NCBI GenBank assembly: GCA_019454045.1
Contig: SKCR01025345.1
Coordinates: 413,042 to 477,041 of the forward strand
Origin: Zanthoxylum bungeanum
Taxonomy: Eukaryota; Streptophyta; Magnoliopsida; Sapindales; Rutaceae
Length of the DNA stretch: 64,000 nt
Direction: 5' to 3'
Part shown: one piece after another, positions 3,620 to 39,218 of the stretch
Layout: each line of letters starts with the position of its first letter
How positions within the stretch are numbered: position 1 is the stretch's first letter
Program-made: the position numbers and the translations under genes
Notes under the pieces: model-generated
Database searches by the model: none
The model's input: the letters and a program-made list of their open reading frames with translations, nothing else
Told to the model about the DNA's origin: nothing

Positions 3620-4686
3620 ACAAACACAACCTCCCATCTTAATTCAATTATGCCACCACCATTTCCTTTTGTTAATCACACCAACTTTGTATTTTAGGAG
3701 TGTTTTAGATTGAATCTAAGGAGAGGGTGAGGAGAGTATTTTAGTTGTGAATAAAGAGAGTTTTGAAGACAATTACAGAGAGATTTGAGAGCATTTTCAG
3801 AAGTTTTTAGAGAGAAAAATGAAACTAGTAGAAAGAGAAACAACTAGAGAGAGAAAGTGCCTAGTTCGACGTCGTCCAATCTCTGTTTCCGATGAGTGAC
3901 CACGTTTGGAGAATCCTCTCGACGAGACGAATCCAACGACACTAATCTGCTGCAGTGATTCCACCAGACGCTCCTCCACGCGCGGCCTCGTCTCCTCCTC
4001 CACGCACCACCGCGCCTGTACCTCACCTCCCGGATCAGAATTTTCCCCTCGTCGAGATACTCAGTATGGACATTTCGTTTGCCTAAATCTGACCTTCAGT
4101 TGTTCAGAAACGAGCCAAAAATGATAGTTATCGTCGTTTGACATAACCACCGTGCTTCAACTGTCATCACCACCATCACTGTGATCCTTATGACGTATAC
4201 TAACCATTGGTTCTGTCGTTATAAAATTTGGAGGTCGTTGGAGTTTGGTATGTGATTGTTACCGTTTTGGGGTGTAAACGTAAGATTTTTAAAGTCTTGG
4301 ACTTAATTGCATATTGGCATGATTATGAGTATAAATCTGTAAATTCTATTTTTCAGGGGTTAATTAGTAATATTTGAGAGTTTTAGGACTATATGGAGAT
4401 AATAGAAAAGTTTTAAGGTTAAATTGAAAATTTAAAAAGTGTTTGGGTAAATTCATAAATTTAGCAAAATTGAGGGACCTGATCATAATTTTATATTTTT
4501 CAGATGTCAACGAGGATATAGATATATTGAGGACTTTTGCATAGATTGAGGTAAGTACAACGCATGATGATTCCCTTAACATAATTATTTGTTGATTGAG
4601 GGTTGGCATGAAAGTGTGTGTGTGTGTGTATATGTGTATGTATATATATAATGATATAATTATAGTTATCTATATGTGTAAATATT

Positions 4687-4718
<32 letters not shown>

Positions 4719-4882
4719 ATATATATATATTTTATTGAGTTATTGAAGACATGAGAAATATAAATCTGTGATTGTTGAGATGAGATTGATGGATTGAATG
4801 TGAGATTTGATTGTATTGGATGATGAGTGTTATTATATTATGCTGCCAAATTTTGTATAATAGTGGTCAGAGATGAGATGAG
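3620..4882 (+). mobile_element. LTR family X, copy 1, left part (interrupted)
   Basis: Aligns by eye to the complete solo LTR at 19,797-22,009 across the GAGAGAGAAA-rich segment, the GACGTCGTC and CTCTCGACGAGACGAA block, the TTTGGAGGTCGTTGGAG block and the GTAAGTACAA-GATTCCCTTAACATAATT block. Its own 5' end is missing (the gypsy LTR abuts it). A Y-family solo LTR then splits it. The short open frames here on either strand are not genes. Confidence 0.7.
4681..4731. repeat. (TA)n microsatellite
   Basis: Two runs of TA dinucleotides in the family X LTR. The solo copy at 19,797 has an (AT)n run at the corresponding place, so it is an inherited feature of the family. Confidence 0.85.
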
Positions 4883-7287
4883 TGTAGGGGTTGGTGCTCA
4901 GAGCGCCAATTCCCGGTTGTATTTTGTTAAATACTTCTGTAAAACGTTATTATCAATAATAATATATGCAGTTTCTATAATATAATCTAATCTTTTATAT
5001 GGTAAAGACGTAATGACCCTAGAATGATTAGTCATGATACAGTTGCAAAAGCGTCGCAACGGACATTGAGTCGTATCATGACGTTGTCATTCTCAGACAG
5101 TTCCTGGTCAAGGTTTACACTACTTGGTCAGTATAGTAAACCCGTTGAGACCGGTACATGTCGTATACTGGAATATATGATTCCAATGGTTTCTCAATGA
5201 ACCATAAGTCTTGGAGACTAGTATAGACGTGTAGGTGTTTATAGCGGATAAACACTGAACGACTCACCGAAGATTCTTAATGGATGGTACACCAGCGTCA
5301 ATAAGAATCTTCTTGGGTTGAGTAGCACTTGTGATTCTTAGACTTGAGATGCCATTGTGGGCACATGAGACATCTTCTACACTTAGACGGCAGTCACGTC
5401 ACCGATCTATTTAGATCAGACCTCCGCCTGTTCGTTGGGTGTAGATAGATCCTCAGGGTGTCCTATGTGTATCAAGATAGGATCCGTCAGTTCTGTGTAC
5501 CAGAGCATAGGTAGTCCATATGATTAGCAATCAGATAAAACCATGGGCCCGTGGTAAAGTTTAGAAGCTAGTTCTAAACATTCTTTTTGAGATTGCTAAT
5601 GGAAAAGTCGACTGGATAATCCCCATAGAGATTTGACGTTTACATCTGTATCTCTGGGATTTATCCGGATACCTGTGACGGAGGGATTATACATCTGCCA
5701 TGACCTCGACCTGTATGGTTCAACGAGATTATCCGTGATCGTCATAATCTACGGGTGGATAGATTATGGACACGAAATTTGATTTCGTGACGGAAATACC
5801 TGAACCTAGAGAGTCTCAATAATGAAACATACTCGTAGAGCACTAGAGCAACATTAAATAAATAATATTGATTATTTGTAAAGTCGTTTAAAGGTTAAAC
5901 GCAAGATACGTGCAAAAAAGGACCCGATAGTCATTTACGTAATTATTGTGTATTTACATTTAATACTTGATTAATTTAAATACACATTAATTAATAGTCA
6001 AAATGAGTTATTTGACTTTTATCCTAAATGAATATATGTTTTTAATATTTAATGTAAATATTATACATATATTTAATATATTTGTATTTGATTAATTAAT
6101 TAATTGTTAAATGATTAAATTAATTAAAATATAAATATTTAATGTTAGGATATTTGATTTGTAATGATTAAAGTTGCTTAATTAAAGTAAATAAATATCT
6201 ATAAAGTAGTTTTAGATATTTAATTTACTTTAACCAAATTAATTGTCAAATGAAATTGAAATTTATTCTTGTTGCATTTGGTATATCATTTTCGGCCAAG
6301 GCATATTCCAACAAGTATAAATTTTTTTCATTTCATTTTAATTTGATAACCTAATACACATTTCACAAAAGTAAAACTCCATTGAAGAAAGCTTGAAGAA
6401 CTTTGAGAAAGAAAGAAAAATCCAAGAAAGCTTGATTTTAGTAAGTTTTCTCCAACTTACTATTAGTAGGGAAATTGTTCCTTAGGATCTAGGCTTTCAT
6501 ATTTGATATCCTAAGGTTATTTCTTTCTTTGTTCTTTGTGGTTTTTGTTGATGGAAAACTTTGGTGAAATTGTAAAGCATGTATGATGAAGAAAGGATAT
6601 GACTATTGTAGTTATATGTAATCTTTTAAGGTTTATGAAACCATGTTGCTATTCTAGAGTTGTTGACCCACTCTTAAATGACCTAGATTTGATCTTGAGT
6701 TGTTTCATTGTGTTGAGACTTGAATTGGATGTAAGATTGATGATTGAAGTAATTGATTTGGTGTATTAAGTCCAATTTGTCCAATTTGTTGAAATTGAGA
6801 AATTAGGGTTTATAACCAATTCTGAATTTGGGGCTTTTGAGATATGTTGAGCATTTGGGTGTGTATATGATGCATGCAAAGTTTCATGTTGATTGGATTT
6901 CATTTAGATGAGTTTTGAGACATGAAATGACCAAATGGTCATTAAGCCCTCCAAATGAGGCTCACGGCATTTGGATGCCAATTTGGGGATTTTGTGTCTT
7001 TTGGTGTTTTGATGTTTTGAACATGCTAAGTTCATCTTAGAAATGATTTAGAATCATTCAAAATTGATTGGATCAATTCGGACTAAAATGGACAAAATAC
7101 CATATAAGGGTAATTTGGTAATTTCACTTGAATTTGATTCATTTGAAATTTTATTTCATTATTTGATTATTGGGTAATTAAATAAATGTGTTTATTTATT
7201 TAATCCAAGAAAAAGTTTTGAAATCTGAAAATCGGATTTTCACCGCTTCCGCTGCGTTACCGGATTCACCCGTATAAAACCCCTTCA
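4883..7287 (+). mobile_element. Solo LTR, family Y copy 1 (copia type), 2,405 bp
   Basis: Starts TGTAGGGGTTGGTGCTC and ends AACCCCTTCA, flanked by the 5-bp target duplication ATGAG at 4,878-4,882 and 7,288-7,292. It sits inside the family X LTR, whose text resumes at 7,293. Assignment to Ty1/copia comes from copy 3 (54,670), which is followed by an initiator tRNA-Met primer site. The block at about 5,100-5,800 is the most conserved between copies and is dense in inverted repeats: GGTTTAC/GTAAACC (5,112-5,142), GTGTTTAT/ATAAACAC (5,235-5,255), an 11-bp stem at 5,269-5,312, CATAATCTA/TAGATTATG (5,743-5,768) and CACGAAAT/ATTTCGTG (5,771-5,789). No open reading frame of note. Confidence 0.85.
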
Positions 7288-7971
7288 ATGAGCTGAGCTG
7301 AGATGAGATGAGCTGAGATGTGATGAGAGAGCTCATAAGAGGCTATGCGATGTTATGCATAATTAGAGGTGGAGAGTGTTTCAGTTCTCACTTACACATT
7401 TATGCGTGATGATATGGTGGGAAACCTTGAGAGTTATGATGAGGTACTCTCCCATTGGTTTCAATCTATTATTATACCAGACCCGGATTAGCAACCATGT
7501 TTGATGGATGTTTGTATTGTTGTGAAAATGGTTGCTTGAGATGATGCTTATTATAATATATGTTATTTTCAAATATTATTACATATATATACATACATAT
7601 CCATATTTTATTGGTGAGGTCATGTTGAGAGTATGAATGCTTTACTTACCGAGTTCTTTAAGCTCACCCTTATCCCAAACATCCTAGTAGTTCGTCAACA
7701 CAATAGTAGCAGTACCCGGATTTGATCCACGTGCCACAATGGCTTTTCGGGTTTATCCAGATATTTAAGATATTATTTTCATGTTCTTAAAATTTGTGTT
7801 GTAAACTTTAATATTGAAGGCTTTATTCAGAGATTTGCTAAATTGTAATTTAAGAAGCATTAATTTATTTGCATATATGTTTGAATTGTGTGACATGTAG
7901 GATGCTCAAACTAATGAAGTCCACGAACCCCTTTCTAGAGTTGGGCTCATTTTAGGGAGAGGGTTGTGACA
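7288..7971 (+). mobile_element. LTR family X, copy 1, right part
   Basis: Continuation of the X LTR after the Y insertion. It matches 21,300-22,009 of the solo copy, including GATATGGTGGGAAACCTTG, TTTGATCCACGTG and the terminal GGGTTGTGACA. It ends at 7,971. Confidence 0.75.
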
Positions 7972-8550
7972 TTATTAATCATAAATATAAGGCTACAAGC
8001 ATAGTTAAGCCTATATTTTTTTTTTTATGTTTACTTGTAGGGGAAATATTAGTAATCTCAATCATGAGCCCTAACTTTATCCAAAGTTTTATCATCTTAT
8101 CCTCGCTTGCTAGTTTCCTTCGCACATTTTCTTGACCCAAATATGTCTTTAGGCCAGTAAGTTATCTTTATTTAGGGTTCTTGAACAATAAAGATTAATT
8201 CCGAGGACCAAAATTGGATCTTTATTGATGAATTCTTCAATAATAAGTAAAATTCAAAGAATGGAAGAGATGGGAAGAGTGAACCTTGGCCTTTAAAGAT
8301 TGGACCCTTAAAGACAAGATTAAAATCTTTCTAAAATGGACTCTAGAAATCGATGAATAAATCAAAATAAAAGATCGATTTTGACATGAAATGGATATAT
8401 ATATATATATATCTCTAATTTATATTTATGAAATGATCAAATAGTATTGAGGATTGGGAAAGACGCACCTCTAGTGTACCAGTTTTTGTGTCCACGGTAA
8501 ATACTGAGTAGTCAAGTGCGGAGAAGATAATTATTAAAAGCATCTAAGTA
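7972..8550. other. Unassigned A/T-rich stretch
   Basis: No gene or recognisable element. Holds a T-run (8,017-8,026) and a short (AT)n run near 8,396-8,413. Could be internal sequence of the family X element, since it directly follows the X LTR terminus, but no primer site is visible. Confidence 0.35.
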
Positions 8551-8555: not shown

Positions 8556-10781
8556 TGTTAGAGTTGGTACTCGGCGTGCCGATTTCTTATGTATTTCCTT
8601 GTAAATACGTGTATGAACAATATTTTATTGTGAATAAAATTTACAGTTTCGTCAATATATTTTCTTTAAAATGGTAAAAGTGTAATAGACCTAGGAATGA
8701 TTTAGTTATAACGTAATTGTAAAAACGTCGTAATTGACATTGAGAAATGTTATAACAATATCATTCTTAAACTGTTCCTGGTCAAGGTTTACATTATTGA
8801 TCCGAAAGTTAACTCGGGAGATTGGTACATGTCAAATATAAGAATATTAGATTCTGTTGGTTTATCTCAATGAGTTGCGAGTCTAGGGAGACTCGAATAG
8901 ATATGTAGGTGTTCATAATAGATGAGCACTTAATGAATCACAGAAGATTCCTAATAGATGGTACGCTTACGTCAATAGGAATCTTCTCGAGTTGAGTAGC
9001 ATAGTGGTCCTTCGACTTGTGATATCACGGTGGATATATAAGTTATCCTCCACACTTTGATGACAGTCACGTCTTTGACATTTTTAGGTTAGATCTTCGC
9101 CTGTTCATTGGGTGTGGATTGATGCTCATGATATTCAGTGATGTGTCCAGAGAGGATTCATTAGTTCTGCGTGCAGGATTTAGGTATCCACTTCATGAGA
9201 TTACGATTTATCAAATCCATGGCCATGGTACACTCGAAAATTAGTTCTAAGTGTTATTGAGAAATCGTGAATCTATACGTTGACGGGATTATACTTTATG
9301 AGATTTGACGATTATATCTATGTCTCTGGTATTTATCCGGATACCTATGACAGAAGGATTATACATATGCGAAGATCTCAACTGTATGGTTCAACAAGAA
9401 TATCCATGGTCGTCATAATTTATGAGTGGGTAAATTATGGACACGGGATTGGATTCCGTGAGGAATATACCTGAACTTAGAGAGTCTCGCATAATCAAAA
9501 ATACTCATAGAGCACCATGGTGACTTAAAATGAATAATATTGATTATTCGAAAATCATTTAACGGTTAAACGAAAAATTACATATGCGGGTCATTCGGTA
9601 ATTTCCTAAATTAATATGTATGTGTATTAGATACATAGTTTGATTAGATACGTATTAATTAATTATCGAATGAATTTGGAACATATGTTCATCATGTATG
9701 TATTTTAACATTTAGTGTAAATGTTGAAATACATTATACATTTAATTAAATGAATTAATTAATTAAAATATTAATTAATTTATTTATTAGGAATTTATAA
9801 GTATATTATTCACATGTATAAGACATGTGTTGTATGCTTTAAATTGTGACATGTGGACTTGTTGGAAAATTTAGTGGAATGAGATATTTGTTTTGATTTA
9901 TCAAATTGTTTTATTAAATTTAAAAAAAAAATTGATTTTCTCTCTCCCACTATAAGCCTAATTATTGGCCAACAAAGGAAATGGGGTACTATTCCCATTT
10001 CTTTAACAACAACAACTAGAGAGAAAAACCTAAAAGAGAGAAAAATTTGTGAGATCAAAATCAAGCAAAAGCTTAAAGATTATTGAAGTTTACGGTAAGT
10101 TTATTAATCTTTTAGCTAGGAAAGTGTTTCCTTTGCAATTTTGGTAATACATGTGATGTATATTATTTTTCCTTCTCTTGAATATGAGTTTTTTGTTTGT
10201 TGGATGCTTATTGGGAAGATTAAATACACGTGTGATAATACTTTGGGCTTAATAATTGTTATTAGAGTTCAATTTGATCTAGGAAATAAAAGTTGTCATT
10301 CTAGAGTTTCTATACCACTTTATAGAATCCTAGAATTATTCTTGAGTGTTTTTGAATGTGGCGAGACTTTAAGAATGTTGGATTGATTACTCTAATGCTA
10401 GATTGAAAGCCAATTTAGGTGGAAATTTGGTTAATTTGATTAATTACAATTTTTAGGGTTTATGCCCATCCCAAATTGGGGCTTTTCATTCTATGAAATA
10501 ATTGGGTACATTATATGTATATTAATAATTTTGGTAGTGTTTTGGAAATACTTAATTGTGTAATTGACACTTTTGGACTAAAATGAATAAAATGCAAAAA
10601 GTTTGCTAAATTGGTAATTTTCGGTCATAAGGGTATTTTGGGTAAATCCAAATTTGATTTGGGATTAAATATTAAAATAAATAATTTATTTTAATAGTCC
10701 AAAGAAAAATTTTTAAAATTCGAAAAATCTGATTTTTCACGTTCTGTTGCGCGACCCGGTAAAACCGTGAAAACGACAACA
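8556..10781 (+). mobile_element. Solo LTR, family Y copy 2 (copia type), 2,226 bp
   Basis: Starts TGTTAGAGTTGGTACTCGG and ends GACAACA, flanked by the 5-bp duplication GTAAG (8,551-8,555 and 10,782-10,786). It shares the whole conserved block with copy 1, notably TTCCTGGTCAAGGTTTACA at about 8,775 and the stem-loops at 8,909-8,929, 8,943-8,986, 9,414-9,439 and 9,442-9,460. Point differences fall on both arms of these stems in a pairing-preserving way. Short open frames inside are not genes. Confidence 0.85.
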
Positions 10782-19663: not shown

Positions 19664-21104
19664 ACTCTCCTCCCTAAAGATACTCAAGTTAAAAATTATC
19701 TTCCAAGTTAGTGACCTCATATAAACTACCGATCTTTATGTGTTCAGTTTTTTATAATCTTCTGTCACGCTTGCATGTATAACAATGGATGGTTAATGTA
19801 ATACCTCATTTTATTTTTATCAAATTATTACCTCAATTATATTCAAAGATAACCAAACCACATAATTTTATATCATTACCTAAAGCATGTTTTTATGTCC
19901 CCTAATTATCAAAACAAACCCATCACCACACCTCTAATCCAATCATTAACAATCACTTATATCACCACCTAGCTACTTCTAATAATAATTAAAAAAAGAA
20001 GTCATTCTTGCTATCTCTTCATTGCAGCAACATAGCAGATGAGGGGGAGAGTGAGTATGCAGAGAAGAATGTCTTAGACCTAATAAGAGGTGGTGCTAGT
20101 TTTAATGCTTCTGTTGAGAACGTTTCTTTTGGAGGGATTTTCTTAAGGTCTTTATTCATCTTCAACTCCATTCACCAAGCATGCTTTCTGGATTCAGACT
20201 GTAACTAATGAAGAGAGAGTGTTGAAGATAAATTTCAAAGTTATGAGAATAATTTTGAGGAGTTTTAGAGAGAGAAATCAGAGCAATTGTGGGGGAATTT
20301 CTAGAGAGAGAAAATTTATCCGAGAGAGAGATGCTTCGTTTGACGTCATCTGAGCTCCATTTTCGGCGTGTGACCACATCTAGAGCATCCTCTCGATGAG
20401 ACGAAGCTAACACCACCAGACCATTGCAAAGAAACCACCGGACGCGCTCTCACACGCACCGATGACTTGTTGTCCACGCGCTTCATACACCGTCGTGCGT
20501 GTTTGACACTTCCCGGACCAGAATATTTCCCTCGTCGCAAGTTGGACATTTCATTTGCCCAAATCGGACCTTCGGTTGTTGAGAAACGAGCAAAATATAG
20601 TAGCTATCGGGGTGTAATCGATCGTCGGTAACCATTGTGTTTCAACCCTCACCACCACTATCACCGTGGTCCTTGAGACGTTTGCTGAACAATGGCTTAT
20701 TCGTTGTGAGATTTGGAGGTCGTTGGAGCTTGATATGTGATTATTACCATTTTGGGGGTGTTAATGATAGAATTTGAAAGTTTTAGACTTAATTGTATAT
20801 TTGCATAATTAAGAGGGTAAAACTGTAAATTTTATTTTTCAGGGGTTAATAGGTAATAATTGAGAGCTTGAGGACTTTATGGACATAGCAGGAAAATTTA
20901 GGGATAAAATCATAATTTTAGAAAAATTGAGGGACTTGATTGTAATTTTATATTTTTCAGATTCTTAGCAAGCATATAGGCATATTAATGACTTTTGCGT
21001 TGATAGAGGTAAGTACAATGCACAATGATTCCCTTAACATAATTGTTTGTTGATTGATGGTTGTTGTGAAAGTCTATATCTATTTATTGGTATAATTATA
21101 ATTA

Positions 21105-21108
<4 letters not shown>

Positions 21109-21149
<41 letters not shown>
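21109..21149. repeat. (AT)n microsatellite
   Basis: Long AT run inside the X LTR. A second one follows at about 21,573-21,637. Confidence 0.9.
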
Positions 21150-21151
<2 letters not shown>

Positions 21152-21320
21152 GGAGATATTATATTGTGTTATTGAAAGCATGAGAATTATGAATTCATGA
21201 TTGTTGAGATGAGATTGATGGATTGAATATGAGATGTGATTGCATTGGATGATGTGTGTTGTTATGTTATGCTATCGGGTTTTGTATAATAGTGGCCGGA
21301 GATGAAATGAGATGTGTGAG

Positions 21321-21472
21321 ATATTTTGCGGGATAATATGGTGAAAAACCTTGGGAGTATGAGAGAGACTATTCCATTGGTTTTAATCCACTCACACATA
21401 TTTTGCGGGATAATATGGTGGGAAACCTTGGGAGTATAAGAGAGACTCTCCTATTGGTTTCAATCCACTATT
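21321..21472 (+). repeat. Tandem duplication, 77-bp period
   Basis: The segment starting ATATTTTGCGGGATAATATG is repeated at 21,398 with few differences. The X copy at 7,288 has only one unit, so the duplication is specific to this copy. Confidence 0.75.
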
Positions 21473-21573
21473 ATACTGAACCAGATTAGCAACCATGTTT
21501 GATGGATATTTGTATTTTTGTGGGATGGTTGCTTGAGATGATATTATAGTATATGTTATTTTCATATATTATA

Positions 21574-21637
<64 letters not shown>

Positions 21638-22014
21638 CCCTATTTTGTTGGTGAGGTCATGTTGAGAGTATGAGTGCTTTACTTACTGAGCTCTTTAAAC
21701 TCACTCTCATTTTCCCCAAACATTCCAGGTAATTCGCTAGCACAGCAATAGCAGTACCAGGTTTTGATCCACGTGTCACAGTTATTTTTCGGGTTGGTCC
21801 AGACATTTAAGTCATCATTTGCATATTTTTAAGATTTTTGTTGTAAACCATAATATTGGAAAGATATTCAGTGATTTTCAAATTTGTAATTTAAGATGTA
21901 ATATTTGTGCATATTTGTTTGATTTGTATGACATATAGAATGTTCGAACTTAAGAAGTCCGCGAACCCCTTTCTAGGATTGGGCCTGCTCTAAGGAGGGG
22001 GTTGTGACAGTTAA

Positions 22015-23053
22015 TATTCAGTTAGTTATATATTTTTATCTATAACTATTATTCACATTTTATTAGAAAAAAATACTCAATAAAAATCCAAGCAAGCACC
22101 GAATTCAGTACTCTCTCAAACAGTCTTATGATTATAGAAGATTCCAAAAGATAAATCACGAGTAAACATATAATGGCCACGCCTGCAAATGCACCATTGT
22201 ATTGCCTTTGTAGCCCAAAGGACCAACAATCACAATATGTTCAGTTGACAGAGTCAAGAGCATCATTCATCAAAATTACCTAACTTATATATCTTTTATC
22301 ATCTTTATATATCAAAGTCATTTACTTGTAACCCAGTTCACATTTAAGTTGAATAAGAAACATGCCTACCAACTTTTTCTCATTCTGGCCTGGAGATGCC
22401 TATAAACTCAGGAAGAATCAATGAGTGGAATTCTTTTAGGTTGAATATGGGGCCTCCACTATGATATTGGATGTTGAATTTATTAGTGCCTTTAATGGCC
22501 TACCCAATTGAAATTTCAGAATTTGATATGTTTAAACCATATACTAGGTTTTGCTAATTTTATTGCTTTCATCTTATCGATTATGCGTATCTAATTTAAT
22601 GTGCAGGGATCGTTAATATATTAAAACATATTATGATGAAAATCTTTCTTCCCATTTTCCCCCGAAACAAAGCAATGATCATTTCTTAGGTGTGTTGGAT
22701 GTAGCTTTCTGACATGTCACTGAGATTTTAGTAGGGATGACAATGGCCATATATGAAATAAGGATTTTATTATCCTACGTATTCAACTCGTTTCATTAAT
22801 GGGTACGAAAGAGTTCCCCGTGAATGTTATGGAACTTCAAAAGCCTTGTAATTCTGTCCTTCATAATCTTATCTTGTGAGTACTGTCAAAAACTTTGAAA
22901 ATTAATTCATTTAATCTTTTTGTAGGAGATTATGCCTTGAAGGAGTTTTGTTGGTGTGTATTTAAAGGAGTTGCTGGAATTATTAAATTGAAGAAACTTT
23001 TGTTGAGAGCTGCATGTAATCCTTTTTTTTTTTTTTTTTTGGTGTTTTGGTGA
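22015..23053. other. Unassigned A/T-rich stretch
   Basis: No gene seen on either strand. A T-run of about 19 lies at 23,022-23,040. Confidence 0.3.
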
Positions 23054-23612: not shown

Positions 23613-23963
23613 TGTTGTGATTAAACACACACGAATAGAGGTGATTGGAGAGAAAACTCTTCTTTTATATTCACAAACAAAAGAATTACAAAGCTTTATA
23701 ACCCAAGCTTTACAAAAAACTTTCACACCACTTTACTCTCTATTACTCTCACGTTTGAGATTTCTGGGATTTCTGGGATGATAAAGAATGAAGTTTTGGG
23801 CTCCTTAAATAGCCACCAAAACGTGTGCACTTTTGCAACACGTTTTGGCAAAACGTGTTGCAGCTGGCAACACACCACACACATCACTTCTTACTTTCGG
23901 CGTGTGTGTTGCCAACTTGCATGCATGATGCATGCAAGTTGCTTCTTGCAAGCTGTAACAACA
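23613..23963 (-). repeat. 3' LTR of the Tork-like element
   Basis: TGTTGTGATTAAAC...TAACAACA on the + strand. Holds a 27-bp palindrome at 23,914-23,940 built on CATGCA (RY) motifs, and a TTTTTGTAAAGCTT segment. The minus-strand polypurine tract (GTGGGAGATT) is at 23,964-23,973. Confidence 0.92.
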
Positions 23964-24123
23964 AATCTCCCACTCGGTGAAGATTTGCCAAAATCTGAGC
24001 CGACCATCAATCATCCAAACTGGATCCTCAAAAGGATCCTCCTATGGCTGCATCTGTATGACTGCCTACGTACCCTGAGTTGGGATCAAGCCAATCGTAG
24101 TTCTCTGAGTCTCCCCACTCTGA

Positions 24124-27100
24124 CTATGTGGAGAGTTTTGTCATCCCGGCTATGGCACGACAGATTTCAAGCTTCTCCTTCGGTAAGACCTTCGTGAACA
24201 TATCGGCACCGTTGTCGTCGGTGTGAATTTTCCTGAGTTCTAACAGCCTTGAGCTCAGGACGCCCCGTATCCAGTGATACCTCACATCGATATGTTTTGA
24301 CCTCGAATGAAATGTGGAATTTTTACCGAGATAGATAGCACTCTGGCTATCGCAGTACAAAATGTATTTATCCTGCTTGAAACCCAATTCCTGGACGAAT
24401 GTCTTCATCCACAACAATTCCTTATAAGCTTCTGTCACTGCAATGAATTCTGCCTCTGTTGTAGAAAGTGCAACACATCTCTGCAACCTAGACTGCCATG
24501 CCACAGCTCCTCCTGAGAGAGTAATCAGATATCCCGAAGTAGACTTACGGGTATCCACATCTCCTGCCATATCTGAATCGGTGTAGTCTATCAACACTGG
24601 TTCGCTCCTTCCAAAACATAGCCTCATTTTGGATGTGCCTCGAAGATACCGCATGATCCATTTGATAGCATTCCAGTGTTCCCGTCCTGGGTTTGACATA
24701 AACCGGCTGACCAATCCAACTGCGTGTGCTAAGTCTGGCCTCGTGCACACCATGGCATACATAAGACTTCCCACTGCTGAGGTGTATGGAACCTGTTTCA
24801 TTTCCTCATTCTCTGTCTCAGTAGAGGGACTCTGTTGTGTACTCAATCTAAAATGGGTAGCAAGAGGAGTGCTAACCGCTTTAGCCTTGTCCATCTGGAA
24901 TCTCTGAAGTACCTTCTCGATATACTCCTTCTGTGACAAGTATAACTTCCTGGCTTTCCGATCACGACCGATCCTGATGCCAAGAATCTGTTTAGCTGGC
25001 CCCAAGTCTTTCATCTCAAAAGACTTACTCAGTTGCTGCTTCAAATTATCAATCCTCGATTGATTCCGACCAACTATCAACATATCATCTACATACAGCA
25101 GTAAGATGATAAAGTCATCGTCAGAAAATTTCTGAACGAAAACACAATGGTCTGAAGTGGTCTTCTTGTATCCCTGCTCCCCCATAACTGACTCAAACTT
25201 CACGTACCACTGTCTCGGTGCCTGTTTCAAACCGTAGAGGCTTTTCCTGAGTCTGCACACATGGTCCTCTTTCCCTCTGACTCTGAAGCCTTCTGGTTGC
25301 TCCATGTAAATTTCTTCTTCCAGATCTCCGTGAAGAAATGCGGTCTTGACATTCATCTGCTCAACTTCCAGGTCGAGGCTTGCTGCTAAGCTGAGTACTA
25401 CCCTGATGGATGACATCTTCACAACTGGAGAGAAGATTTCATCGAAGTCAATGCCTTTCCTCTGATTGAATCCCTTGACAACTAGTCTGGCTTTGTACTG
25501 GGGTTGTGAAGTATGCTCTTGTTGCTTCACTCTGTACACCCATTTGTTCTTCAAAGCCCTTTTGCCTCTTGGCAATTTCACCAACTCAAAAGTGTGATTG
25601 TCATGCAAAGATTTCATCTCATCTTGCATGGCTTCCTCCCACTTTTCTCTGTCTTCTGTTTCCACAGCCTCCTTGTAGCTCTCGGGTTCTCCCCCGTCAG
25701 TAAGCAGCACATACTCATATGTAGAGTATTTGGTTGAAGGTCGTCTTTCTCTGTCAGACCTTCTCTGTGGAACTGTTGGTGTAACTTCTGGTACTGGTGG
25801 TTGATCATGATCATCATCTCTGAGAGCTTCATCACATGTACCCTCCTGTCTGGGAACCTCATCTTCAACTCGTACTGGCACCAGTGTATTAGGTTCTGGA
25901 TTCACATTTCTGTATTGCTGGGGCATTGTCTTCATCTCATTCCGGATATCTTCTATGGTATGGTCTTCAACAAAGACAACATATCGACTTCTGACAATCT
26001 TCTTCTCCACAGGATCATAGAGTTTGTAGCCGAAATCATCATGACCATAGCCAATAAAGACACAATGTCGCGTCTTTGCATCAAACTTGGATCTCTCGTC
26101 CTTTGGGATGTGTACAAATGCTTTGCACCCAAAGACATGCAAGTGTTCATAAGACACTTCTTTACCTGTCCAGGCTTGGTTAGGAACATTACCTTTCAGT
26201 GTGACCGCTGGGGACATGTTCAAAATATGTACTGCTGTGTTGAGTGCCTCCCCCCAAAATGTCTTCGGCAGCTTGGCTTGTGACAGCAAGCTTCTGACTC
26301 TTTCGCACAAGGTTCTGTTCATCCTCTCAGCTAGGCCATTTAGCTGAGGTGTCTTCGAATGTGTCGTTTAATGTCTGATTCCTTGCGTCTTGCAGTATTG
26401 ATCAAACGGACCTCTGTATTCTCCACCGTTATCTGTTCTGATGCATTTGAGTTTCTTACCGGTTTCTCTCTCCACCAGGGCGTGAAACTCCTTGAACAAT
26501 CCCAACACTTGATCTTTTCTCTTCAAGGTGTATGCCCAGATCTTCCTTGAATGATCATCAATGAATGTCACAAAATACAGTGACCCACCAAGTGTTCGTG
26601 TCTGCATCGGACCGCATACATCTGAATGTATGAGATCTAGTACCTCCGGTTTCCGTTGAGGCGGGGAGCTCTGGAAGGACACTCTGTTCTGCTTTCCAGC
26701 CATGCAGTGTTCACACTTCCGTAAGTGTGAGTTCTTCAATTCGGGAAGAACATTCCTCCTGCGTAGTATCTACATCCCCGTTTGACTCATGTGACCGAGC
26801 TTTTTATGCCATAGCTCGGCTGCCTCATTGCTGTTGACTGTATTTATGCTACTATTTGAAAGCTTAGCATGCATCAAATACAGAGTTGAATCTTTCTTAC
26901 CTCGTGCCACGACCATTGATCCTTTAGTGAGCTTCCAGGTGCCGTCACTAAAGGTGCTGCAGAAACCTTCATCATCCAGCTTGCCTGTTGAGATCAAGTT
27001 TAACCGGATGTCTGGGATGTGCTTAACTCCCTTCAACACTAGCCTTGTCCCGTTCTCTGTTTCAAGGCAGATGTCTCCAATACTGACGGCTTTGGACTGT

Positions 27101-28086
27101 CCGTCATTCCCCATCCTTACAGCACCGTAGTCCCCTGGTGTGTAAGATGAAAAGAAGTCTCTGCGAGATGTGGCGTGTATGGAGGCGCCACTATCTATCA
27201 CCCAACTGGTCTCGTGGCTGGTAAGATTCACAACATCTTCTTCATATATAATGAAGAACTGTTTGGAGGTATTGTCGGTGGTAGTAGCAACTCTTTCTTG
27301 ATTAGAGTCACCATCTCTCATGGACTGTTCGTTCTTCAGTTTTTAACAGTCCCTTTTCATATGGCATTTCTTTTTACAGTGATAGCACTCAATATCCCTC
27401 GTTCTTGATTTCCCCCGGTTCTTGTCTGATCTCCCTGGGCCTCGGCTTTTACTCCTCCCCCTTCTGGTGTTCTTTTCTGTCACTAGAGCTTCTGAGGTTG
27501 AGGCTGATGCTGACTCCTGCATTCTCGTCATCTTTTCTTCCTCGAAGATCCTGGTTTTCGCCATCTCCATAGTGACTTTCCCATCTGCGGCTGAATTTAT
27601 CACCGTAGATCTGAACGTTTCCCAAGATTCTGGTAACGTATTAAGGAGTATTAAGCTATTTACCTCATCACCGAAGTCTATGCCCAATCCAGACAATTCT
27701 TTCATTGTTCCGAGGAAATCGTTGATGTGGTCCGCCACAGCTATACCTTCCTGGTATTTCAACCCCATCATCTTCTTGATGTAGTACAGCTTGTTGTTGC
27801 CAGTCTTTGCTCGGAAAAGATCCTCCAGCTTTCTTCATAAGATATGTGCATTTGTCTCTTCACTAACATGGTTCACGATACTGTCGTCGATCCACTGACG
27901 AATAGTACTGCATGTTTTCTGGTGAAGATTAGCCCACTTCTCATCGGACATTCCTTCTGGTTTCTGCTCCAGAATTACCGATCCATCATAGTCATTCACA
28001 TACAGAAGGTCTTTCATCATTCCTCTCCATGTGAAATAGTTTGTATTGGTTAACAAAACCATTTTTCCGTTGCCCCCATCCATCAT
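24124..28086 (-). pseudogene. Copia gag-pol polyprotein, 1,320 codons in one frame with four stops
   Basis: The single minus-strand frame runs from the ATG at 28,084-28,086 to the stop at 24,124-24,126 without a frameshift. Gag (28,086-27,343) ends with a zinc knuckle CYHCKKKCHMKRDC in which the conserved Gly before His is Cys. Protease follows with the active-site WVIDSGAS. Integrase has WHKKLGHM, HSDVCGPM, FIDDHSRKIW and DNGGEY. Reverse transcriptase has AFLHGDLEEEIYMEQP and the catalytic YVDD (in LLYVDDMLIVG). RNase H has DYTDSDMAGD, TEAEF and DSQSAI. Internal stops sit at 27,835-27,837 (TGA, probably from Trp), 27,343-27,345 (TAA), 26,770-26,772 (TAG) and 26,368-26,370 (TAA). The element therefore cannot make the full polyprotein itself but could be mobilised in trans. 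Plus-strand open frames here are shadows. Confidence 0.95.
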
Positions 28087-28837
28087 AAAAATTCTAAGCA
28101 GAATTTCAAAAAACGGACCTCACTGTTGCGTCCGGAATGGTCAAAAATTGTGGAAATGACACTTCGTTTGTCAAATCGGACGCAGGGACCAATTTGTAAA
28201 TTTCAGAAATTAAAGGGGTCAAAGTGCAATTTCCAAAAGTTTAGGGGCCAAAGTGCAATTACGGAAAAGTTCAGGGATTAAATTGCAATTTCCAAACAGT
28301 TTAGGGACTAAATTGAAAATTTCTAAAAGTATAGGGGCTAAATTGTAATTTCCAGAAAGTTCAGGGACCTATCTGAAATTTACCAGGCACCTATCTGAAA
28401 TTTACCAGGCACCGCTGACGTGGCACTGATGGCTGACTGCAACGCTGACGTGGCTGCTGACTGGATGCCGCGTGTCTGCTGACTGTGTTGCTGACGTGTC
28501 CTGCTGACTGGGCTGCTGACTGTGCAGGGTCTACTGACGTGGCGCTGACTGGACGCTGACTGGACGACACGTGGCGGCTGACGTGGTCGTCTTCTTCCTT
28601 GAGCGCGCGTGCGGCGCGTTTCTGCGCATGGAGCGTGTGGCCAGCTCTCTGTTGGCGCGTGTCGCGCGTGAAGGGTCACCGGAGCTCCGTTCGATCACCG
28701 AAAAATACCACCGTGCTCGTCTCGCCGTGAAAAGTCTGATGGTATGCTCAAAATCGATTTTCAACAACTTTCGTCGGAACCGACTTTCCGAACCAAATCT
28801 CTGTTACTGAGTTTCGGGATCCCTACGAGTAATCTTA
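28087..28837 (-). other. 5' leader of the Tork-like element, with tandem repeats
   Basis: Untranslated leader between the primer site and gag. It holds about six 30-bp units (28,190-28,375) around AGGG-CTAAATTG-AATTTCC, then two 22-bp units (28,369-28,412), then GC-rich text at 28,412-28,590 with many GCTGAC and TGACGTGG repeats. A short open frame at 28,380-28,679 is not a gene. Confidence 0.75.
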
Positions 28838-28849
28838 GCTCTGATACCA
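28838..28849 (-). other. Primer-binding site, initiator tRNA-Met
   Basis: Minus strand reads TGGTATCAGAGC exactly, two bases inside the 5' LTR. Confidence 0.92.
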
Positions 28850-28851
28850 CT

Positions 28852-29198
28852 TGTTGTGATTAAACACACACGAATAGAGGTGATTGGAGAGAAAACTCTT
28901 CTTTTATATTCACAAACAAAAGAATTACAAAGCTTTATAACCAAGCTTTACAAAAAACTCTCACACCACTTTACTCTCTATTACTCTCACGTTTGGGATT
29001 TCTGGGATTCTGGGATGATAAGAATGAAGTTTTGGGCTCCTTAAATAGCCACCAAAACGTGTGCATTATTGCAACACGTTTTGGCAAAACGTGTTGCAGC
29101 TGGCAACAACCAAACACATCACTTCTTGCTTTCGACATGTGTCTTGCCAACTTGCATGCATGATGCATGCAAGTTGCTTCTTGCAAGCTGTAACAACA
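28852..29198 (-). repeat. 5' LTR of the Tork-like element
   Basis: Nearly identical to 23,613-23,963, including the RY palindrome at 29,149-29,175. As the 5' LTR it would supply the promoter. Confidence 0.92.
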
Positions 29199-29203
29199 AT
29201 GTC

Positions 29204-32462: not shown

Positions 32463-32467
32463 AAATT

Positions 32468-33355
32468 TGTTGATGGTGGGTTTTCACCCCCAATAAGTCA
32501 GCATCCCGAGGATGGGCAAGAAAAGAATTTTCAGTTACGATGATGCGTTTTGTAAATAACAGAGGAAAAACCCAAGGTCCTCGTTAGGGCGAGATTAGGC
32601 AGAAGGACTTGAGCCTAAGGCGCAGAATCAATCTGACCAGAAGAGGTCATGATCCGACCAAATGAGGTCATGCTCCGACCAGAGGAGGTCAAAATCCGAC
32701 CAGTGGATCCGACTAGAATAGGTCATGATCCGATCAGAGAAGGTCATGATCTGACTAGTGGATCCGACCAGAGGAGGTCATGTGCATCATCCATAAAGCT
32801 GTGATGTGACTAAAGCAACTTGCAAGGTCATCCTCTGACACACGCCACCGCGTGAACGAATGATACAGGCTGGCGTCATAAAGGTAGTGTATGGCAGTAT
32901 TCAAGAAGGGGGTGATTAATGAAATTTCAGATGACAGGTTTACTTTCGACAGCAGCAGGAAATCCGCGTGGCTGACGTCGTGAAGATATAGGAACAGTGT
33001 TACTTTTTTAGTATATAAAGGGAGGGTAAACACATTTGTAAGGGTTAGAAAATTTTAATCAAGCACCACTTGTGAGAAAACACCAAGCAAACATCTCGGT
33101 ATCATACAATCATCCTTCAAAGAGGTCGGCCGAGCTCGGTTCAGTTATAAAATCAGTATTCCACTTTGTTCCCATGGACGTAGGCTGGATCCACTCCGCC
33201 GAACCACGTAAATCCTTTGTCATTTTGGTGTTTGTTTTTATTTTTCTGCTAAATTTGCTTTTGGCCCTTTATACCAAACAAATTCATGGTTGGAGAAGGA
33301 TTATTCCAGGAGCGGTATTCAAACCTGCCCTTGGAACGAAAATCACCTGTCAACA
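32468..33355 (+). repeat. LTR 1 of the tandem gypsy element
   Basis: TGTTGATGG...TGTCAACA. Contains about eight GATCCGACCAGAGGAGGTCAT-like units (32,630-32,785), a TATA box (TATATAAAG at 33,012-33,020) and the conserved GGACGTAGGC...CGAACCACGTAAA motif near 33,176-33,222. Primer-site-like GTTGGCCACGTCTGTGGGG follows at 33,356. Confidence 0.88.
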
Positions 33356-33453
33356 GTTGGCCACGTCTGTGGGGAGAGAGCAAAAAGCATTTGACGTAGT
33401 AAGACAATAGCATGAGACGGGAACCACAGATCGTCGGAGGGTTCAATGACTGA

Positions 33454-34916
33454 GTGGATGGAGAGAATGGAAAAAACATGAGGAATGAAATGAAGACAAA
33501 CCAAGCCTCCATGAAGGCCATGATGGAAAAGCTGAAAATGATAGAAAAGATGAACGATGAAAAGTTGGAGGCTGGTCTAAGCCATATGAGAGATGAGATA
33601 ATGAAGGGAAAAAGTGTTGTAGGCCTGGGCAGAGGTGATGAGCCAGGGAGGATGGATCTCTGGAGGGTGAGATCTGTAGTGGAAGCCGGAGCCTTACCGA
33701 CAGAAAGACTGTGGGAAGAAGAGGAGAAGAGGCAAACTCTAGAGTCCTTCAGTAATAGCCCACGTTTTAAGAAGGATGGGCACGGAAGACATGGGGGGGA
33801 TATCGAGAGGGGTTCAGCCACAGCGTACGTCGTGCTCGGAGTAGCAGGCGTGAAAAAGTTCGCGAGAGGCAGCGATATAATACCGACGAACCGATGAAAG
33901 ACTGGTTCAGGAAAGAGATGAAAAATGGGAAGAAAACATGAAGGCTGACAAGGGAGACAGTCAGGACGGAGAAGCGGCATCCCCATTCACGGAAGAGATA
34001 TTGTCAGCAGAGTTCCCTAGACGGCTCATCATGTCATCTATGAACTCCTACAAAGGTCATACCGACTCCAAATCCCATGTCGAAAATTTTGTTTTGCTAA
34101 TGGAGGTTCAAGGGATGGTGGGATAGGCCATCTGCAAGATGTTCCCTTTGACCTTGTGTGTACCCGTAATTTTGTGGTTCAGAAGTTTGACTTCAAGGAG
34201 CATCAATAGTTTCTCTCAGCTCAGTAAATCATTTGTTCGACATTTCAAAGGAGCGTGTGTGCCAAGGAAGATGGCAGGAGAACTGACTGATGAAGCAGTG
34301 AGATGATGAGCCCCTGAAGAATTTTATTGAAAGGTACCATGATTTGGTGCTCGAGGTCGGAGCATACGAGTCATCAGAGGCACTGGAAAATCTTAATGGA
34401 GCTCTAAAGGTCGGGAGGTTGTGGACTCACCTGAGGATCTAAGAGATACCAGACTATGCCACAGCTCTGGAGTTGGCCAGGAAATTTATTTTGATGGAGG
34501 AGGATGAGAAGATTGCCCGAGGATGGGGCACCCGGAGGACTAAGATACTCATGTCGGAAAATCAATGAAATTTGGGCAAATATGTGAGGAGACCAATCCC
34601 GGGGCAGAAGGAGCTCAGGCCGACGCCTCAGGATAATCAAGTTCAAGAGATGAGGTCGTATGTCCATGCCAACCATGTCGTGGGGGGACAGTGTACACCC
34701 CCCTGAACAGACCCATGGCCCAGATAGTTCAGGAAGTCTAGGATAAAGGTCTATTAGCCGAGCCCGACCTGAGGAGGTTTTCGATTGAGGAGGGAAACAA
34801 CATGGCTTATTGTATGTACCATAATGTAAATGGACATGCCACGAATGGATGCAGGCCTGCAGGAGCAAGTGGAAGACCTGGTGAAAAAAGGCTATCTGGA
34901 TTAGTGCATAGACCAA
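33454..34916 (+). pseudogene. Gag-like remnant, internal copy 1
   Basis: Plus-strand frames at 33,454-33,897, 33,938-34,126 and following text read as broken plant gypsy gag: EILSAEFPRRLIMSSMNSYKG, then a region with FKGACVPRKMAGEL and LALELARKFI-like helices, with stops and shifts between. The minus-strand open frames over the same stretch (33,249-33,986 and 34,404-34,916) are shadows. No zinc knuckle or enzyme domain is seen. Confidence 0.55.
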
Positions 34917-35131
34917 ATGGCTATGGAGGCCGACCAGTGCTGATAGTAGAAGTCATCAAGTCGGGCACTTGGAATGCTGAGATGCTGAGAGGATATTTTC
35001 AGTAGAGCCTCTCTTATAATGACCCCCAAAGAGTTGTAAGAAGAGCAGTAGATCCCAAGAATATGAGTAAGACTTTCCATTTCTTAAATAAACTTTTGTT
35101 TATCCATGCTTGTTCATTATGGCCAATAAGA

Positions 35132-35577
35132 GGCCGAGGTATTTTGATGGCTCGGGTCTGCTTTAGTATCGGCCGAGGCCGAGGTGTTTTGATGGCTCGG
35201 GTCTGCTTTAGTACCGCCAAGGCCGAGGTGTTTTGATGGCTCGGGTCTGCTTTAGTACCGCCGAGGCCGAAATGTTTTGATGGCTCGGGTCTGCTTTAGT
35301 ACCGCCGGAGGCCGAGGTGTTTTGATGGCTCGGGTCTGCTTTAGAACCGCCGAGGCCGATGTGTTTTGATGGCTCGAGTCTGCTTTAGTACCGTCGAGGC
35401 CGAGGTGTTTTGATGGCTCGGGTCTGCTTTCGTATCGCCAAGGCCGAGGTGTTTTGATGGCTCCAGTCTGCTTTAGTACCGTCGAGGCCGAGGTATTTTG
35501 ATGGCTCGGGTCTGCTTTCGTATCACCGAGACCGAGGTGTTCTATGGCTCGGGTCTACTTTAGTACCACCGAGGCCT
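35132..35577 (+). repeat. Tandem array of 44-bp units, internal copy 1
   Basis: About ten units of GGCCGAGGTG-TTTTGATGGC-TCGGGTCTGC-TTTAGTACCG-CCGA, with a few variants (TCGTATCGCCA, TATTTTGATGG). Sits between gag-like text and the 3' untranslated part. Confidence 0.92.
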
Positions 35578-36123
35578 TATTATATTCGTTGACATGGGGT
35601 CAGAGTTTCTCCTCTATGGCCAAATGTTATTGGCACAATGGTGGTACGTTCCCCTGTGGCCAAGTATTTATTTGTGGCTAGGGGTCGGGTTACGTCCCAG
35701 CGATGCTTTGCTATCTTCGATTGGCACGAGGCCTGGGTTACGTCCCTCAAAAGCCCTATTATTGTGTTAATGGCCCGAAAGAAAAAAAAATTCCCCATGG
35801 CTTGTCTTCTGTTATACAAGACTTTACAGAACATTCCTTATGGAATCTCGAATTAGAGGGTATGACCCAGAAGAGGAGAGCCGAGATTGTGAACCTAATC
35901 TCAGATTTTCGACTAAGGGTCAACCAGTGCTGATTCAGGTCGGCATCGAATGTCCAAGTGTTGAAAAGGTACCACAAGACATCAGATTAAAGCAATATGA
36001 GGTGCTCATAAGAGTATCAATTTGAGGAAATCAGATTAGTCTCCAGTTTCACGCACCACCATCTTTTTTATAGTTCCCGACATCAACTCGTTAACTCGTT
36101 GATATCGAGAACTAGGGGACATA

Positions 36124-36982
36124 TGTTGATGGTGGTTTTTCACCCCCAATAAGTCAGCATCCTGAGGAATGGCAAGAAAAGAATTTTCGCTTACGATGAT
36201 GAGTTTTGTAAATAACAGAGGAAAAACCCAAGGTCCTCGTTAGGGCGAGATCAAGAAGAATGACCCGAGCCTGAGGTGAAGAATCAATCCGACCAGAAGA
36301 GGTCATGATCCGACCAGTGGATCCGACCAGAAGAGGTCATGATCCGATCAGAGGAGATCATGATCCGACCAGTGGATCCGACCAGAGGAGGTCCTGTGCA
36401 TCATCCATAAAGTTGTGATGTGACTATAGCAACTTGCAAAGTCATCCTCTGACACACGCCACCGCGCAGCGTGAACGAGTGATACATGCTGGTGTCATAA
36501 AGGTAGTGTATGGCAGTATCCAATAAGGGGGTGATTAATGAAGTGTCATATGACATGTTTACTTTCGGCAGCAGCAGAAAATCCGCGTAGCTGACGTCGT
36601 GAAGATATGGGAACAGTGTTACTTTTTTTTAGTATATAAAGGGAGGGTAAACACATTTGTAAGGGTTAGCAAATTTTTAATCAAGCACCACTTGTGAGAA
36701 AACACCAAGCAAACAACTCGGTATCATACGACCATCCTTCAAAAGAGGTCGGCCGAGCTCGGTTCAGTTATAAAATCAGTATTCCACTTTGTTCCCGTGG
36801 ACGTAGGCTGAATCCATTCCGTTGAACCACGTAAATCCTCTGTCATTTTTGTGTTTTGTTTTTATTTTTCTGCTAAATTTGCTTTTGGCCCTTTATAACC
36901 AAACAAATTCATGGTTGGAGAAGGATTATTCCAGGAGCGGTTTCTTCAAACCTGCCCTTGGAACGAAAATCACCTGTCAACA
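36124..36982 (+). repeat. LTR 2 (middle) of the tandem gypsy element
   Basis: Serves as 3' LTR of internal copy 1 (polypurine tract AACTAGGGGACA just upstream) and 5' LTR of copy 2 (GTTGGCACCGTCTGTGGGG follows). TATA box near 36,633. Fewer GGTCATGATCCGACCAG units than LTR 1. Confidence 0.88.
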
Positions 36983-37080
36983 GTTGGCACCGTCTGTGGG
37001 GAGAGAGAGCAAAAAGCATTTGACGTAGTAAGACAATAGCATGAGACGGGAACCACAGATCGTCGGAGGGTTCAATGACT

Positions 37081-38562
37081 GAGTGGATGGAGAGAATGGA
37101 AAAAACATGAGGAATGAAATGAAGACAAACCAAGCCTCCATGAAGGCCATGATGGAAAAGCTGCTGAAAATGATAGAAAAGATGAACGATGTGAAAGTTG
37201 GAGGCTGGTCTAAGCCATATGAGAGATGAGATAATGAAGGGAAAAAGTGTTGTAGGCCTGGGCAGAGGTGATGAGCCAGGGAGGATGGATCTCTGGAGGG
37301 TGAGATCTGTAGTGGAAGCCGGAGCCTTACCGACAGAAAGACTGTGGGAAGAAGAGGAGAAGAGGCAAACTCTAGAGTCCTTCAGTAATAGCCCACGTTT
37401 TAAGAAGGATGGGCACGGAAGACATGGTGGGGGATATCGAGAGGGGTTCAGCCACAGCGTACGTCGTGCTCGGAGTAAGTAGCAGGCGTGAAAAAGTTCG
37501 CGAGAGGCAGCGATATAATACCGACGAACCGATGAAAGACTGGTTCAGGAAAGAGATGAAAAATGGGAAGAAAACATGAAGGCTGACAAGGGAGACAGTC
37601 AGGACGGAGAAGCGGCATCCCCATTCACGAAAGAGATATTGTCAGCAGAGTTCCCTAGACGGCTCATCATGTCATCTATGAACTCCTACAAAGGTCATAC
37701 CGACTCCAAATCCCATGTCGAAAATTTTGTTTTGCTAATGGAGGTTCAAGGGATGGTGGGATAGGCCATCTGCAAGATGTTCCCTTTGACCTTGTGTGTA
37801 CCCGTAATTTTGTGGTTCAGAAGTTTGACTTCAAGGAGCATCAATAGTTTCTCTCAGCTCAGTAAATCATTTGTTCGACATTTCAAAGGAGCGTGTGTGC
37901 CAAGGAAGATGGCAGGAGAGAACTGAGACTGATGAAGCAGTGAGATGATGAGCCCCTGAAGAATTTTATTGAAAGGTACCATGATTTGGTGCTCGAGGTC
38001 GGAGCATACGAGTCATCAGAGGCACTGGAAAATCTTAATGGAGCTCTAAAGGTCGGGAGGTTGTGGACTCACCTGAGGATCTAAGAGATACCAGACTATG
38101 CCACAGCTCTGGAGTTGGCCAGGAAATTTATTTTGATGGAGGAGGATGAGAAGATTGCCCGAGGATGGGGCACCCGGAGGACTAAGATACTCATGTCGGA
38201 AAATCAATGAAATTTGGGCAAATATGTGAGGAGACCAATCCCGGGGCAGAAGGAGCTCAGGCCGACGCCTCAGGATAATCAAGTTCAAGAGATGAGGTCG
38301 TATGTCCATGCCAACCATGTCGTGGGGGGACAGTGTACACCCCCCTGAACAGACCCATGGCCCAGATAGTTCAGGAAGTCTAGGATAAAGGTCTATTAGC
38401 CGAGCCCGACCTGAGGAGGTTTTCGATTGAGGAGGGAAACAAAACATTGCTTATTGTATGTACCATAATGTAAATGGACATGCCACGAATGGATGCAGGG
38501 ACCTGCAGGAGCAAGTGGAAGACCTGGTGAAAAAAGGCTATCTGGATTAGTGCATAGACCAA
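37081..38562 (+). pseudogene. Gag-like remnant, internal copy 2
   Basis: Near-identical to copy 1. The 37,198-37,482 frame repeats more than 70 residues of the 33,454-33,897 frame unchanged, but small insertions (for example near 37,162, 37,479 and 37,918) shift frames differently from copy 1. Confidence 0.55.
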
Positions 38563-38777
38563 ATGGCTATGGAGGCCGACCAGTGCTGATAGTAGAAGTC
38601 ATCAAGTCGGGCACTTGGAATGCTGAGATGCTGAGAGGATATTTTCAGTAGAGCCTCTCTTATAATGACCCCCAAAGAGTTGTAAGAAGAGCAGTAGATC
38701 CCAAGAATATGAGTAAGACTTTCCATTTCTTAAATAAACTTTTGTTTATCCATGCTTGTTCATTATGGCCAATATAG

Positions 38778-39218
38778 AGGCCGAGGTATTTGATGGCTCG
38801 GGTCTGCTTTAGTATCGCCGAGGCCGAGGTGTTTTGATGGCTCGGGTCTGCTTTAGTACCGCCAAGGCCGAGGTGTTTTGATGGCTCGGGTCTGCTTTAG
38901 TACCGCCGAGGCCGAAATGTTTTGATGGCTCGGGTCTGCTTTAGTACCGCCGAGGCCGAGGTGTTTTGATGGCTCGGGTCTGCTTTAGTACCGCCGAGGC
39001 CGAGGTGTTTTGATGGCTCGAGTCTGCTTTAGTACCGTCGAGGCCGAGGTGTTTTGATGGCTCGGGTCTGCTTTCGTATCGCCAAGGCCGAGGTGTTTTG
39101 ATGGCTCCAGTCGCTTTAGTACCGTCGAGGCCGAGGTATTTTGATGGCTCGGGTCTGCTTTCGTATCACCGAGACCGAGGTGTTCTATGGCTCGGGTCTA
39201 CTTTAGTACCACCGAGGC
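38778..39218 (+). repeat. Tandem array of 44-bp units, internal copy 2
   Basis: Same array as at 35,132-35,577, unit for unit, with one-base indels. Confidence 0.92.

Follow-up and report, generated by a model that had tools for sequence, protein, structure and literature searches.

A covarying stem-loop block in the long terminal repeats of an abundant copia family of Zanthoxylum bungeanum suggests a selected RNA structure

Elements of U3 with a part in the export of RNA are described for HERV-K and a monkey relative (PMC6916052, PMC11379458); a table in the first of these reports places the span of the Rec response element (RcRE) of HERV-K at ~430 bp (PMC6916052), and the region of the MER11-derived element is given as ~1000 bp (PMC11379458). 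A review of models of long terminal repeats (LTRs) ties the conservation that is left in long R regions to stem-loops (PMC3601003). For the RNA of the plant copia element BARE, mention has been made of conserved signals for dimerisation and packaging (PMC3735527), and ahead of the 3' LTR of Sireviruses stands a polypurine octamer, AGGGGGAG, whose last base varies in two members (PMC2829016). It is in our judgement a largely open question by what means plant LTR retrotransposons divide their RNA among nucleus, translation and particles, and an LTR structure supported by covariation offers a definite target for probing and mutation. In the literature outside subscription journals we found no covarying structure in a plant copia LTR. 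Here we describe an LTR block of ~800 nt that is probably a sense-strand U3 RNA structure and would act in cis on the fate of the RNA of an abundant copia family.

The window, a stretch of 64,000 nucleotides at the end of its contig, holds three copies of this LTR, Y1, Y2 and Y3 (Table 1), which start where the earlier note had placed them and share the stem-loop block it described. They are 68-72% identical to one another over the first 960 LTR positions of Y1. The family is a Ty1/copia LTR retrotransposon, as the note had held, on the evidence of LTR pairs, target-site duplications, primer-binding site and domain order. Among the 40 matches listed for a search with Y1, four LTR pairs lie ~7.1 kb apart, and among the 40 listed for Y3 two pairs lie ~6.8 kb apart. 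The LTRs are 2.4-2.55 kb long, with the structured block in their 5' part, and paired LTRs begin with TG and end with CA, as in Ty1/copia elements. Locus L061 has LTRs of 2.41 kb (TGTAGGGG...CTTCA) that are 98.8% identical as a pair, the 5' one aligning end to end with Y1 at 90.6% identity; the LTRs of L063 measure ~2.55 kb. Short, 5-bp target-site duplications were present in all three cases examined, namely Y1, L061 (AAATC) and L063 (ATATC), the last two identified by eye. The tRNA-Met-type primer site TGGTATCAGAGC directly follows the 5' LTR in L061, L063 and Y3, and a purine tract precedes the 3' LTR in L061 to L064 (AGTGGGAG in L061, L062 and L064; AGTGAGAG in L063). The Sirevirus octamer has no occurrence in these four loci, which thus lack the polypurine tract of that group. 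The internal pieces of L061 match Pfam models in the order PF14223, PF22936 with PF13976, PF00665 and PF07727, that is, gag, integrase and RVT_2, the copia order.

The family is abundant: a conserved 19-mer at Y1 5100-5118 has 22,609 exact matches in the 3.96-Gb assembly (11,327 forward and 11,282 reverse), and the same 19-mer read backwards has none. It had no match in viral contigs and seven in 257 Gb of bacterial and archaeal contigs, which is about the chance level (estimate ~4).

Table 1. Features of the three LTR copies, in window coordinates; paired segments are separated by a slash.
Feature	Position	Strand	Details
Target-site duplication, left of Y1	4878-4882		ATGAG, 5 bp
Y1, solo LTR of the copia family	4883-7287	+	TGTAGGGG...CCTTCA; inserted in another repeat
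Short hairpin at LTR start	4888-4912	+	
Domain A, hairpin	5021-5093	+	5021-5040/5073-5093; covarying pairs 11/21
Domain B, branched	5100-5260	+	5104-5109/5149-5154, 5112-5116/5138-5142, 5155-5162/5226-5233, 5186-5192/5197-5205, 5235-5240/5250-5255
Domain C, hairpin	5260-5320	+	5269-5279/5302-5312 (stem cited in the earlier note)
Domain D, long hairpin	5333-5484	+	5343-5355/5465-5476, 5361-5374/5457-5470, 5376-5382/5439-5445, 5403-5408/5413-5418; alternative pairings overlap between RNAalifold and the strand-neutral helix search
Domain E, branched	5483-5682	+	outer helix 5483-5489/5676-5682; enclosed 5524-5532/5591-5598, 5557-5566/5572-5581, 5618-5623/5656-5661
Domain F, branched	5692-5824	+	5717-5723/5800-5806, 5729-5736/5790-5797, 5743-5751/5760-5768, 5771-5778/5782-5789
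A+T-rich hairpins 3' of the block	5858-6075	+	weaker covariation
Candidate TATA box	6316-6322	+	LTR position ~1434; role inferred
Target-site duplication, right of Y1	7288-7292		ATGAG, 5 bp
Y2, second copy	8556-9780	+	LTR 3' end left undelimited
Y2, structured part	~8688-9502	+	
Y3, 5' LTR of an element	54670-~57200	+	3' end approximate
Y3, structured part	~54860-55677	+	
Primer-binding site 3' of the Y3 LTR	57206-57217	+	TGGTATCAGAGC

Elsewhere, the window contains copia, B3-domain and S28 matches. The repeat into which Y1 is inserted is dispersed (3755-4882 with 7389-7981, and 20214-22020; ~73-76% identical). A separate copia element occupies 23613-29199, with end repeats of ~350 bp that are 96% identical and an open frame of 747 aa matching RVT_2. 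The G+C-richer stretch 32465-40115 carries direct duplications ~3.65 kb apart, identical (100%) in parts, with arrays of a 44-bp repeat; its three ORFs of 182-245 aa have no Pfam match. On the minus strand lie matches to a B3-domain family (At2g31720-like, 42619-43626) and to the initial portion of the S28 serine carboxypeptidase model (50129-50581).

RNAalifold, run on 16 copies (the three of the window with 5 of 29 Y1-like and 8 of 29 Y3-like copies drawn at random), predicted nested domains from ~5021 to 5824, giving six stem-loop domains over ~800 nt of Y1. As the same 16 copies both found and display these helices, the tests below use single-copy folds or strand-neutral rules. A strand-neutral search found 21 compatible helices, well above the 'at least seven' inverted repeats of the earlier note; 41 of their 179 pairs show at least two Watson-Crick types, against 12 of 122 pairs in the 14 helices of a mirror-repeat control. 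The note had let the block begin at 4883 and end at 5800; the LTR does start at 4883, but the structured stretch runs from ~5021 to 5824, with A+T-rich hairpins up to ~6075. The stems it quoted are present, GTGTTTAT/ATAAACAC in Y1 corresponding to GTGTTCAT/ATGAGCAC in Y2 and GAAGATTCTTA/TAAGAATCTTC to GAAGATTCCTA/TAGGAATCTTC, and GAAGGTT/AACCTTC occurs in Y3 with one extra base (10 of 11 pairs). The clearest stem, absent from those the note had cited, is Y1 5032-5040/5073-5081, where eight of nine pairs show at least two Watson-Crick types across the three subfamilies, some of the compensation proceeding via transversions such as T-A to G-C. Mean folding z is -1.3 to -2.1 in the LTRs, compared with -0.3 to -0.9 in two other stretches, and one control stretch also has a strong hairpin (z = -8.3). 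At Y1 5930, in the A+T-rich hairpins, z is -5.0 for the sense and -6.0 for the antisense strand. All three LTRs have their best sense z in this A+T-rich stretch (5930-6155, 9675-9825 and 55795-55945), that of Y3 reaching -8.0.

LTR identity, conserved pairing and covariation were computed directly. The main alignment holds 77 copies, 30 of subfamily a (Y1), 17 of b (Y2) and 30 of c (Y3), with mean identities within subfamilies of ~0.99, 0.92 and ~0.95; those of a and c were the top-scoring matches and no random sample. The covariation sample comprises these three subfamilies only, with most copies closely related. In a fold computed from Y1 only (span 120), 54 of the 69 double-sided changes seen in the majorities of subfamilies b and c were Watson-Crick, compared with 13.3 under a permutation null (sd 3.5, maximum 29 in 2000 permutations) that swaps partners among pairs of the same type and keeps the changes of each column. 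Part of this excess arises because double changes are themselves more frequent than the null gives (69 against 29.9). Folds from the other copies behaved alike: 31 of 48 double changes were Watson-Crick for Y2 only (null 10.6) and 48 of 59 for Y3 only (null 11.1). In a tree-aware test on the 77 copies, compensated same-branch events numbered 27, against 8.3 in 200 simulations (sd 2.8, maximum 15), and uncompensated ones 6 against 7.5. Both nulls were custom scripts.

Perfect inverted repeats of at least 8 bp in Y1 (11 helices, 96 pairs) had 15 of 16 double changes Watson-Crick in Y2 and 10 of 16 in Y3. Single-copy tests gave z = 5.2 and 4.3 for Y1 with Y2, and 6.3 and 5.8 for Y1 with Y3; Y2 with Y3 was not significant (0.6 and 1.2), the Y3 to Y2 count being 27 of 52 against a null of 28.3. 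Four other repeat pairs of the window, used as controls, had no clear covariation signal (z = -0.8 to 1.7); three of them are 71-83% identical, two being parts of one repeat, and the fourth, at 92% identity, has little power. Ten held-out copies, taken from listed 19-mer match places and unused in defining the helices, bear on one outcome that the earlier note had named as refuting its reading, further copies with independently varying arms: 12 of their 14 double changes were still Watson-Crick. Six of these copies share the change at 5273-5308, probably one inherited state, which leaves seven distinct changes; L088, which diverges most among the copies that align well (85.6% to subfamily c), contributes 5 of the 12 compensations, and the two failures fall in L083 and in the poorly aligning L084. 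Thus the permutation null, the tree-aware null, the control repeats and the held-out copies agree in supporting the note's proposal of selection on pairing, and the retention of pairs while letters drifted in three distant subfamilies suggests that the block is a selected RNA structure.

Minus-strand folds covary too, as any Watson-Crick stem must covary on both strands. The choice of strand was approached through mismatches, G-U being a pair in sense RNA and A-C its counterpart, counted in scored, non-overlapping helices picked by a strand-blind rule. Leaving aside the hairpin at the LTR start, these had G-U in 24 pairs and A-C in 6 (p = 0.0014); with it the count was 32 to 8 pairs, and 47 to 14 when cells were counted. 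Unpaired columns were balanced (31:30, 40:44 and 30:40). The excess of G-U in helices, set beside unpaired columns free of bias, points to sense RNA. All perfect repeats gave G-U to A-C ratios of 133:105 at 5 bp, 41:37 at 6 bp and 15:5 at 7 bp, many of those of at least 6 bp being chance pairings, and the single-copy version with 6-bp repeats in the three window copies was mixed (42:22, 20:28, 30:25, 28:36, 27:19 and 41:19). Private changes stood at 125:103 in the copies of subfamily b and 102:94 in those of c. One-sided changes in minus-strand folds, read on the plus strand, favoured G-U in all six comparisons (sum 130:69); in plus-strand folds they summed to 90:64, with A-C ahead in the two comparisons from Y2, and in the held-out copies to 23:17. 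We thus assign the structure to the sense RNA with moderate confidence, the counts other than the first being weaker.

Conservation along the LTR was scored in fifty-base bins after aligning the LTRs of L061 and L063 with Y2. Identity between L061 and L063 was 58-90% in all 15 bins of LTR positions 201-950, and 70-87%, over fewer aligned bases, in the A+T-rich hairpins (1051-1250); beyond 1250 most bins had 26-62%, near the level of unalignable sequence. Most of stem A falls in positions 101-200, where identity was 36-42%, yet the hairpin is retained. A sequence-only MAFFT alignment of domain A misplaced the diverged arms and for this reason was excluded from the counts.

The place of the block in the transcript was approached through promoter-like motifs. 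In subfamily a, 25 of 30 copies have a TATA-type match that begins within LTR 1425-1455, and 27 of 30 have another that begins at ~1240-1265; in subfamily c, such a match occurs within LTR 1300-1700 in 22 of 30 copies, at no shared position. Upstream of the block, TATA[AT]A[AT] was found in none of the 30 subfamily-a copies (LTR 1-135) and none of the 30 subfamily-c copies (LTR 1-200). With TATA-type sites following the block and none preceding it, a place in U3 is suggested, the U3/R/U5 borders being guesses; if transcription starts near LTR 1450, the block would lie in U3 and enter the RNA only from the 3' LTR. Of the 30 subfamily-a copies, 29 have an AATAAA just 3' of the block, at LTR ~970 (Y1 ~5858), which might serve as a U3 poly(A) signal. 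Further downstream, a short conserved stretch of all three copies contains TTCTAGAGTT (window 6441 and 6652; 10299; 56546), in Y1 ~210 bases downstream of a GTAAGT, and the two together could mark an intron in the leader. A donor-like GTAAGT near LTR 1560, in 17 of 30 subfamily-a copies, was set aside as unspecific, another occurring at 670 in 20 of 30.

Both the U3 placement and a role of the block in RNA fate we infer. Selection in replicating lineages would keep the base pairs while the letters drift. With U3 transcribed from the 3' LTR only, the structure would follow pol and lie close to the 3' end of the genomic RNA. By analogy, it may there govern the fate of the RNA in cis, possibly by offering a host protein or Gag a binding platform through which unspliced genomic RNA is exported, stabilised or packaged. 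Our first choice for this role, a tentative one, is nuclear export or stability. Signals for packaging or dimerisation usually lie in the 5' leader. The block, in contrast, is probably in U3, at the RNA 3' end, which counts against our second choice, an unlikely one, in which Gag would bind the structure for packaging or dimerisation, limiting entry into the particle to full-length genomic RNA; the same covariation evidence would serve this reading, and BARE reportedly keeps its packaged RNA in a pool apart from its translated RNA (PMC3735527). Were transcription to start upstream of the block, the structure would fall in R-U5 and could control translation, in an IRES-like manner, or reverse transcription. 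BARE uses two TATA boxes (PMC3735527), but TATA-type matches are absent upstream of the block and present downstream in subfamily a, at ~1250 and 1430-1440; given the U3 placement from these promoter hints, a role in the 5' leader fits less well and seems to us improbable.

Two further explanations were weighed. Copia Sireviruses have palindromic LTR regions that are small-RNA hotspots (PMC5311732, PMC10760457), and the stems could likewise be palindromes acting on the DNA level or in silencing, like the maize arrays that attract small RNAs. This we hold to be very improbable: the stems are dissimilar and nested, with spans of up to ~200 nt, and a DNA palindrome would not predict the excess of G-U over A-C, itself moderate evidence. 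Old transposon copies decay mainly through transitions. Methylation-driven C-to-T and G-to-A changes can thereby mimic compensation from C-G to T-A, and alignment could also mislead, but an artefact of either kind is strongly disfavoured, to the point of deserving hardly any weight: the signal persists under a permutation null that preserves the column changes, stem A is also compensated by transversions (T-A to G-C), the control repeats of 71-83% identity stay at z = -0.8 to 1.7, and the held-out copies agree. Were the block a plant export or packaging element, as the analogy given below would have it, the element would exist at more than 20,000 places in the genome, available to host transcripts. 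With its more than 22,000 exact 19-mer matches, the structure would also amount to a large dispersed pool of RNA-structure modules, which transcripts of the host might carry.

Retrozymes carry a hammerhead ribozyme in the LTR. Rfam searches gave no match at gathering score in the whole window and none at E up to 1 in 4883-7293; in L061 and L063 they gave one weak match, to a Tetrahymena snoRNA model (E = 0.29), outside the LTRs, and no tRNA genes were found in 4800-7400. If it lies in U3, the block would resemble RcRE and the constitutive transport elements of simple retroviruses, such as the MER11-derived one, which are lengthy RNA elements located in U3 or derived from it and borne close to the 3' end of a retroelement RNA; export by those elements was shown with reporters in animal cells (PMC6916052, PMC11379458). 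By this analogy it might be a multi-domain U3 export or packaging element and a putative plant counterpart of RcRE or of a constitutive transport element, which we regard as doubtful. The signals of BARE are cis-acting elements of a plant copia RNA (PMC3735527), as the block would be, and the stem-loops of long R regions are stated for retroviruses and for R, as opposed to the U3 of a plant copia element (PMC3601003). The enod40 domains derived from transposable elements are also stable plant RNA stem-loops with a copia-like relative, but the copia similarity there lies between integrase and reverse transcriptase, outside the LTR (PMC10578108). The first ~25 bases of the LTR resemble, by eye, the right arm of the inverted repeat around the polypurine tract of Pseudoviridae (PMC2829016), a likeness limited to the LTR start and outside the structure at 5021-5824. 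The palindrome arrays of maize Sireviruses are, like the block, a copia LTR region with many predicted hairpins (PMC5311732, PMC10760457, PMC2829016). Those arrays are described as many short palindromes with a CGG-CCG core in highly variable regions; in contrast, the stems of the block differ from one another, are fixed in place and carry compensating changes.
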